Source of the DNA: Acidimicrobiales bacterium
Lineage (GTDB): Bacteria; Actinomycetota; Acidimicrobiia; Acidimicrobiales; Aldehydirespiratoraceae
NCBI GenBank assembly: GCA_029263175.1
Contig: JAJCXZ010000076.1
Span: forward strand, 1 to 64,000
Direction: 5' to 3'
Length of the DNA: 64,000 nucleotides
Made by a program: the position numbers and the translations under genes. This document shows positions 5,073 through 7,375 of the stretch, one piece after another (the first letter of the stretch is position 1; each line of letters begins with the position of its first letter). The notes beneath the pieces are model-generated. The model did no database searches. It saw only the letters and a list, made by a program, of their open reading frames with translations, and was not told the origin of the DNA.

Positions 5073-5120
5073 CCCATCCGATACTGTCGCCGCACACCTC
5101 CGATGCGAAGGATCAGCGCG

Positions 5121-5531
5121 ATGGCAGTCAAATCCGTGTGGCAGATGGTCGACGAGGCGAAGACCGAAATCTCCAACCTCACCCCGACCGAGGCCCAACG
5201 CCGCGTCGACGAGGAGGGCGCGTTGATCCTCGACATTCGCGACGTCCGCGAACTGCAGCGGGGCGGCGCCATCGTCGGATCGATGCACGCCCCCCGCGGC
5301 ATGCTCGAATTCTGGATCGACCCACAATCGCCCTACTACAACGAGGTCTTCGGTGAGGATCGCGAGTTCATCCTGAGTTGCGCCAGCGGCGGTCGTTCCG
5401 CGCTGTCGACCAAGACCTTGCAGGACATGGGATTGCCGCGGGTTTCGCACATCGAGACCGGATTCGCGGGTTGGAAGGAAGACGAGATGCCGATCTCGGA
5501 CTACGACACGTATCGGGCTGCGCGCGGCTGA
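5121..5531 (+). CDS. Rhodanese-like domain protein
   Basis: 136-residue single-domain rhodanese. LILDIRDVRELQRGGAIVGSMHAPRG is the entry motif (quoted in part), and the active-site loop CASGGRSALSTKTL carries the persulfide Cys. The final TGFAGWKEDEMP block is typical of small sulfurtransferases. I start at ATG 5121, which has AAGGA upstream, rather than the in-frame ATG 5103. It lies just before the FrhB-like and selenoprotein-candidate genes, so a role in sulfur or selenium handling is possible but unproven. Confidence 0.82.
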   Translation: MAVKSVWQMVDEAKTEISNLTPTEAQRRVDEEGALILDIRDVRELQRGGAIVGSMHAPRGMLEFWIDPQSPYYNEVFGEDREFILSCASGGRSALSTKTLQDMGLPRVSHIETGFAGWKEDEMPISDYDTYRAARG

Positions 5532-5549: not shown

Positions 5550-6752
5550 ATGGCTGTGACCGACACGAGTACGACCGGGGGGTCCCCGGCCGGCGCGCCG
5601 AGCAAGACCAAAGAACGCTGGACCTATCAGTGGAAAGAGCTTCATGATGAGGTGATCACGAGCGGCCTGTGCACGGGGTGCGCCGGCTGTGTGATCGCAT
5701 GCCCTCACGACGTGATCGGCTACGAGCACGAACCAGGCGCGTACAAGCCGTTCCATCTCGAAGAGGAGCTCGGCACCGACGATTGCATCCACGGCCAGAA
5801 GGGCTGCACCTCCTGCACCCGTGCGTGTCCCCGCTTCCGTATGTGGGAACCGGAGGCCGACATGCATTTGCACGGCCGCGAGCGCGAACCCGAGGAGGTG
5901 TCGGGCATCTACAAGGACATCCTTCTCACGCGGGCGAGCGACGACTTCGTCTACGAGACCGGCCAGGACGGCGGCCTCGTGTCGGCGATTCTCATCTGGT
6001 GTCTCGAAAACGACATCGTCAACGGTGCGCTCACCTCCGGGGTCGAGAGTTTGCCGAACGGTGAGCCGGGATGGAAGGCCTTCCCGATGGTGGCCACCAA
6101 CCGCGAGGAAGTCATGCGCGGCGCCGGGAGTCGCTACACATACTCGGCCAACACAATGGCGTTCCCCGAGGCCAAGGAGAAGGGCCTCGATCGCCTGGCT
6201 CTCGTCGGCATGAGCTGCCAGACGTCGGTGGCGCCGGTCATGTGGCACCGCAAGATCGGCAAGGTTTCCAAACCCATCAAGCTGAATATCGGGCTGTTGT
6301 GCTCCAAGTCCTTCGACGACGCTCTCTTCGAGGAGTTGTTCGAGGTCAAGTACGGGCTGAAGCGCGAGAACATCGCCAAGATGAACATCAAGGGCGTCTT
6401 CCAGATCTGGACCAAGGACGGCGGCTACCACGAGATCAATCTCAAGGAGTGTCACGCCTGGACCCGCGAGGGTTGCACATACTGCCCTGACTTCGCCGCC
6501 GAGCACGCCGACATCTCCACTGGCGGCATCGGCAACGAAACCGACTGGACGCTCACAATCGTCCGCACCGAGCTCGGTCGGGCGATCATCGAAGCGATGG
6601 TCAAGGACGGCGTGATCGAGACTCGACCCGGCGACGACGACCCTGGGGCCATCGCCTTGATGCATCGTCTGGCCCAGAACAGCCGCAATCGGTGGCCCGA
6701 GTGGGCGCAGGGTGCCGCTCGCGTGGGAATTCCCGAGAAGAAGAAGGGTTGA
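5550..6752 (+). CDS. Coenzyme F420 hydrogenase/dehydrogenase beta-subunit family protein (FrhB-like)
   Basis: 400-residue iron-sulfur flavoprotein-type oxidoreductase. An N-terminal ferredoxin-like region has two cluster-binding sets: Cys 41, 44, 47, 51 (GLCTGCAGCVIACP) and Cys 79, 86, 89, 93. The FrhB N- and C-terminal domains follow, including GQDGGLVSAIL, GAGSRYTYSANT and ECHAWTREGCTYCPDFAAEHADIS with three more Cys. FrhB proteins pass electrons between F420 and Fe-S clusters; the physiological partner here is unknown. The next gene starts eight bases after its stop, so the two are probably co-transcribed and functionally coupled. Confidence 0.87.
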   Translation: MAVTDTSTTGGSPAGAPSKTKERWTYQWKELHDEVITSGLCTGCAGCVIACPHDVIGYEHEPGAYKPFHLEEELGTDDCIHGQKGCTSCTRACPRFRMWEPEADMHLHGREREPEEVSGIYKDILLTRASDDFVYETGQDGGLVSAILIWCLENDIVNGALTSGVESLPNGEPGWKAFPMVATNREEVMRGAGSRYTYSANTMAFPEAKEKGLDRLALVGMSCQTSVAPVMWHRKIGKVSKPIKLNIGLLCSKSFDDALFEELFEVKYGLKRENIAKMNIKGVFQIWTKDGGYHEINLKECHAWTREGCTYCPDFAAEHADISTGGIGNETDWTLTIVRTELGRAIIEAMVKDGVIETRPGDDDPGAIALMHRLAQNSRNRWPEWAQGAARVGIPEKKKG

Positions 6753-6760
6753 CACCGAGC

Positions 6761-7375
6761 ATGGATATCGAATTCTGGGTAGATCCGATTTGACCGTGGT
6801 GTTGGGTGACGGCCCGTTGGGTCGTCGACGAAGTGAAGCCGGCGCGTGATCTCAACATCACATGGCAGCCCATCAGCCTGCTGTTCAAGAACCAGCCGGC
6901 GGAGGACTCGTCGTACTACGAGGCATCCGCCTACACCCACAAGTTGTTGCGGGTGATGGAATCGGTGCGCAAGGCCGAGGGCGATGATGCCATCTTCGCG
7001 CTGTACTGGGAGTACGGCCGTCGCATCCACCACGACAAGGACCGCGAGTTCACCGCCGCCCAGGCGCTGGAGGCTGTCGGCCTCGATGTGTCACACGCTG
7101 CAGCGTTCGACGACGAGGACTGGGACAAGGAGATCCGCTCGCGAATGGACGCCGGACTCGATCTCTGCGGCGACGACGTCGGCACGCCGATCATCGCGTT
7201 CGATGATCGCAATGGTGTGAAGCAGGGCTACTTCGGTCCGGTCATCACGCGGGTGCCGAGCACCGAGGACTCCCTCGCCATGTGGGATGCGCTGCAGGCG
7301 ATGATGAACATCGACGGATTCTGGGAGCTGAAGCGCACTCGGACCGAACGTCCGGAGTTCGGCGACCGCCCGTAG
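6761..7375 (+). CDS. Mycothiol-dependent nitroreductase (Rv2466c/DsbA-fold), candidate selenoprotein with in-frame UGA as Sec11
   Basis: 204-codon thioredoxin/DsbA-fold oxidoreductase resembling mycobacterial Rv2466c, which uses mycothiol and a CPWC active site. From ATG 6761 the reading is MDIEFWVDPI, then TGA at 6791-6793, then PWCWVTARWVVDEV. The TGA falls exactly on the first active-site Cys, giving UPWC. The rest is intact: GEDVGTP-like GDDVGTPIIAF, the FFGP-like GYFGPVITRVP and the C-terminal ELKRTRTERPEF. A naive gene call would start at GTG 6806 and lose strand beta-1 and the active site. A hairpin with bSECIS geometry follows the TGA. The alternative is a single-base nonsense mutation or sequencing error. 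Confidence 0.75.
6807..6827 (+). promoter_or_regulatory. Candidate bacterial SECIS hairpin
   Basis: Bases 6808-6815 (GACGGCCC) pair with 6819-6826 (GGGUCGUC) in eight consecutive pairs, one of them G-U. A further U-G pair at 6807/6827 is possible. The apical loop is GUU at 6816-6818, so its first base is G. Twenty-two bases separate the UGA from the loop. The general bSECIS model asks for a stem-loop just downstream, a 16-37 base spacing to the loop and a G among the first two loop bases; all are met. The structure lies inside the coding sequence. Confidence 0.6.

Follow-up and report, generated by a model that had tools for sequence, protein, structure and literature searches.

The locus and the family of its product

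The window analysed here, the whole 64,000-nucleotide stretch of DNA from an Acidimicrobiales bacterium, contains a gene interrupted at codon 11 by an in-frame TGA and located directly downstream of an FrhB/FdhB-family flavoprotein gene. The features of this locus are listed in Table 1.

Table 1. Features of the UPWC gene locus, with positions in the window.
Feature	Position	Strand	Remarks
Rhodanese-domain protein, encoded 5' of the FrhB gene	5103..5531	+	PF00581; neighbour in some relatives only
FrhB/FdhB-family flavoprotein, ferredoxin-like N-terminus	5550..6752	+	PF04432, PF04422, weak Fer4; directly upstream of the UPWC gene
CDS of the predicted Sec-containing Rv2466c-family protein	6761..7375	+	204 aa; ATG start, TAG stop 7373-7375
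UGA codon 11, predicted Sec codon; aligns with the nucleophilic Cys of CPWC	6791..6793	+	TGA in 58/58 distinct full-length relatives; TGC/TGT in Cys relatives
Cys14, resolving Cys of the UPWC motif	6800..6802	+	Invariant, 58/58
Predicted bSECIS hairpin	6808..6826	+	Stem 6808-6815 with 6819-6826, loop GUU 6816-6818

When the TGA is read as selenocysteine (U), the product begins MDIEFWVDPIUPWCWVTARWVVDEV and has no visible signal peptide. The preliminary description of this DNA had proposed that the frame fits the Rv2466c family on both sides of the TGA and that the TGA replaces the nucleophilic Cys of CPWC, the second Cys being kept. Both points held. A single open frame runs to the TAG stop, and the read-through product matched the Pfam profile PF22234 (Rv2466c-like) with 139.4 bits against a cut-off of 27 (E 1.8e-40), as well as the Rv2466c structures 4zil, 4nxi and 5xur of the PDB (E about 1e-37), onto which U11 aligned with the first and C14 with the second Cys of CPWC. 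In the AlphaFold2 model of the product (pLDDT 91.5), residues 2-7 form strand 1 and helix 1 begins with residue 12, which puts the UGA at the classic active site of a thioredoxin fold. In a Foldseek comparison of this model with the PDB, Rv2466c or its homologue from M. leprae accounted for each of the ten best matches, with query TM scores of 0.78-0.81. By its profile score and its predicted DsbA-like fold, the product therefore belongs to the Rv2466c family. No family model for an Rv2466c-like UPWC protein was present in NCBIfam, and the gene has probably been truncated or overlooked in annotation because of the in-frame UGA.

Conservation of the TGA among relatives

We found a full-length orthologue in 45 of the 51 genomes of the source's taxonomic family; in the remaining genomes, two orthologues were cut by contig ends and four genomes had distant paralogues only. 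Exactly one in-frame stop, a TGA, was present in 44 of these 45 orthologues, a regularity that far exceeds chance. A scan of 84,980 species returned 43 loci, all with a stop at codon 11 and all from Acidimicrobiales/Acidimicrobiia or other actinobacterial MAGs (the relatives' loci that bear record titles all come from MAGs). Altogether, codon 11 was TGA in each of the 58 distinct full-length Acidimicrobiales orthologues, and the PWCWVTARWVV that follows it was invariant. A sample of the phylum added one more Sec form beyond the source's family (G081), the other relatives in which the active site could be read having TGC or TGT at this position, so that the in-frame UGA is aligned with the Cys of homologues. 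The preliminary description had counted a TGC or TGT on resequencing, or random stops in close relatives, as evidence against itself; independent assemblies give TGA, and in close relatives it occurs at the Cys codon only. We conclude from these alignments that a predicted Sec form of the Rv2466c-type enzyme is present in most relatives of this bacterium.

Stops were also seen in Rv2466c relatives of three other Actinobacteria (G418, G221 and G189); they lie off the active site, whose Cys codon is TGC, and these candidates were rejected.

In 51 of the 58 sequences a T immediately precedes the UGA. In the window (6788-6790) and its relatives, ATT accounts for 31 of 38 Ile codons at this place, as against 8 of 113 in the neighbour genes, where ATC is preferred. 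A T just before the UGA is a possible read-through context.

A hairpin conserved at the RNA level

Downstream of the UGA lies a hairpin, GACGGCCC-GUU-GGGUCGUC, with a stem of 8 bp and a G as first loop base, separated from the UGA by 22 nt. This spacing and this loop base are as the preliminary description had given them. The single-sequence fold of the hairpin, which it had called stable, is unremarkable (z about -0.6 to -1.1). Since the hairpin of one sequence is not unusually stable, comparative data were needed. In the orthologue comparison 99.6% of the stem cells were paired, and the hairpin codons 16-22 had a pS of 0.087 as compared with 0.50-0.76 elsewhere, their third-position entropy being 0.22 versus 1.31 bits (p 5e-5). 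Codons 17 and 21 face each other in the stem with their third positions, which form G-C in 52 sequences, A-U in 3, C-G in 1 and U-A in 1, with a single A-C mismatch. As both sites are silent, this covariation points to selection at the RNA level. A shuffle control for cells changed on both sides gave 0 of 500. Double changes were confined to this one of the eight stem pairs because most of the other pairs are fixed. The Arg19 codon is CGT in 57 of the 58 sequences, CGT making up 22 of 152 CGN codons among the neighbours in the window, and the core motif of the hairpin was found nowhere else in the fetched loci. These data support a bSECIS element that has a G among its first loop positions and is kept by selection.

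Selenocysteine machinery of the source genome

The source genome (4.4 Mb, 97% complete, 111 contigs) was searched for the four Sec genes whose absence would have spoken against the preliminary description, and the full set was found. It comprises a tRNA-Sec with a UCA anticodon (64 bits), selA (386 bits) and selB (278 bits), which are neighbours on one contig, and selD (355 bits, C3:15979-16917). This selD itself contains one in-frame TGA, which is an independent sign of Sec use in this genome. SelD would thus share Sec decoding in the same organism with the UPWC gene and serve as an internal positive control, although it is an unrelated protein with another hairpin sequence.

Cys forms of the enzyme

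The sole full-length Cys orthologue in the source's family is that of genome G023, which has TGT at codon 11 and a degraded or lost hairpin. It is also the only one of the 51 genomes without a selA match, and its searches for selB and selD returned only related paralogues below the cut-off. As G023 branches, on a long branch, inside the Sec clade and the machinery is absent from it, Cys most likely took the place of Sec upon loss of the machinery. In another family, G163 still has selA, and codons 11-23 of its orthologue (locus L095) combine TGC at codon 11 with an unchanged 19-nt stem-loop that looks like the SECIS relic of a former Sec form. Two more genomes, G206 and G173, have the Cys form with selA present and no intact hairpin. 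The expectation that alignment of homologues would show either Cys or UGA at codon 11 was borne out.

Three genomes of the source's family (G022, G039 and G018) contain selA with the UPWC orthologue undetected, through incomplete assembly or gene loss; in G018 selD was likewise undetected.

Taken together, the position of the UGA, the machinery, the covariation of the SECIS, the selection and the co-distribution of Cys and Sec forms make us highly confident, on this comparative ground, that this is a genuine selenoprotein gene of the Rv2466c family.

Proposed mechanism, mycothiol and the neighbouring flavoprotein

In the explanation that we favour, UGA codon 11 is decoded as Sec by the genome's own SelA, SelB, SelD and tRNA-Sec, guided by the downstream hairpin, and the product is a reductase of the Rv2466c (Mrx2) family that has a DsbA fold and U-P-W-C at its active site. 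Rv2466c itself uses Cys19 as nucleophile and Cys22 as resolving residue, and mycothiol serves as its reductant (PMC11841060, PMC8280269). By homology with it, the nucleophilic role should fall to Sec11, which would most likely attack electrophilic substrates such as disulfides or mycothiolated proteins; the adduct would then be resolved by Cys14 through an Se-S bond, and re-reduction might come from a low-molecular-weight thiol (mycothiol) or from a thioredoxin-like or flavoprotein donor. Sec may bring a kinetic benefit. Any nitroreductase or mycothiol-dependent activity of the UPWC clade, as well as the catalytic upgrade by Sec of which the preliminary description spoke, would be an extrapolation from Rv2466c.

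Mycothiol synthase MshD scored above its cut-off in all 11 genomes tested, and MshC-like genes gave strong matches that nevertheless fell under the NCBIfam MshC cut-off, which is why mycothiol is no more than likely in this organism. Two MshC-like paralogues (G000:C111:67135-68295 and G000:C100:16979-18061) scored well over a third, CysS-like match, and one of the two adjoins the CysS-like gene; they possibly belong to a variant mycothiol pathway.

The chances that mycothiol is the main electron donor appear about even. The one alternative of some weight, which rivals only this functional part and accepts the selenoprotein, is that the partner is the adjacent FrhB-type iron-sulfur flavoprotein, delivering F420H2 or ferredoxin electrons or acting as the substrate. 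In 9 of the 10 genera of the source's family, the Cys revertant G023 included, the FrhB gene is indeed found beside the UPWC gene or close to it, but it is not adjacent to the Sec gene in other Acidimicrobiales (L063, L066, L069-L071, L079-L088), and mycothiol genes are present. FrhB adjacency as a general feature was accordingly rejected, being limited to one family, and we regard such a partnership as possible but on the whole unlikely. Rather doubtful, too, is a combined picture in which a Sec-dependent, mycothiol-linked reductase branch would be old within Acidimicrobiales and coupled to an FrhB-type F420/ferredoxin flavoprotein in one family. Given the MshD and MshC scores and the restriction of FrhB adjacency to that family, we infer electron donor and substrate of the proposed Sec reductase.

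Other readings of the UGA

Chance, pseudogene, sequencing error, an internal start and genome-wide reassignment of UGA are all poor explanations of the locus. With an internal start, translation would begin past the UGA at GTG 6806 (codon 16), yielding a 189-aa protein, and the upstream part would be non-coding. This GTG is present in all 58 sequences; its overlap with the hairpin stem accounts for that conservation. Codons 2-10 have a pS of 0.67 and a pN of 0.07 (pN/pS 0.11), so they evolve and are translated as protein, and the PWC between UGA and GTG is invariant. As had been anticipated, such a start would also remove the modelled strand 1 and the active site. We consider it very improbable.

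Hardly more credible is the insertion of an ordinary amino acid at the UGA, by genome-wide reassignment to Trp or Gly or by a Cys-charged tRNA with a UCA anticodon. The product would again be full length, and a suppressor that inserts Cys would agree with the residue seen in the alignment. However, the FrhB gene just upstream terminates at a TGA (6750-6752), which shows that UGA is not reassigned genome-wide; moreover, a canonical tRNA-Sec is found together with selA, selB and selD, the SECIS hairpin is conserved, and loss of the Sec genes goes with a Cys codon in place of the UGA. A nonsense mutation, a pseudogene or a one-base assembly error can be dismissed as practically negligible, for although the source genome is in many contigs and the titled relatives are MAGs, the identical TGA recurs across many assemblies and genera (58 distinct sequences) and the rest of the frame is open and conserved.

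Comparison with known systems

The Rv2466c family has been studied as an activator of anti-tuberculosis prodrugs. With this predicted Sec-containing member, a bacterial group for which the searchable literature yielded no selenoprotein paper gains a selenoprotein subfamily, which would link Sec with the mycothiol system. The Cys revertant lacking Sec genes and the hairpin-bearing Cys form would offer a direct system for studying what Sec adds.

In the searchable literature, which leaves most subscription papers outside, selenoprotein or selenocysteine never appeared alongside Rv2466c, the pairing with mycothiol gave nothing relevant, and selenoprotein, selenocysteine and Acidimicrobi- were not found together. 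UxxC "DsbA-like" selenoproteins do appear in reviews (PMC13188914, PMC1088965), and DsbA-like selenoproteins are listed in Deltaproteobacteria and Clostridia (PMC1794560). As the UxxC DsbA-like category is already listed, the novelty lies at the subfamily level: we found no Rv2466c-type Sec member described in the searchable literature.

The closest of the listed forms, "DsbA-like protein form 1" (PF01323, NIP15863.1; PMC13188914, PMC1088965), likewise belongs to the DsbA superfamily, has a UxxC motif and was found by UGA/Cys comparison. It differs in coming from the Sargasso Sea metagenome and in its assignment to COG2761, and its descriptions leave Rv2466c, mycothiol and Acidimicrobiia unmentioned; the two are set apart by description only, and overlap is possible. 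NCgl2478 and NCgl2339 of Corynebacterium glutamicum (DsbA-Mrx1; PMC8280269) are akin to the UPWC protein as members of the mycothiol-linked thiol-disulfide reductase family, but have a Cys nucleophile in a CPFC motif. Also among the closest known systems is Rv2466c/Mrx2 itself, the mycothiol-dependent nitroreductase of M. tuberculosis (PF22234, DsbA-Mrx1 cluster), which the UPWC protein resembles in fold, length, position of the C/UPWC motif and resolving Cys, and from which it differs in sequence, with about 35% identity, and by a predicted Sec11 in place of the nucleophile Cys19.
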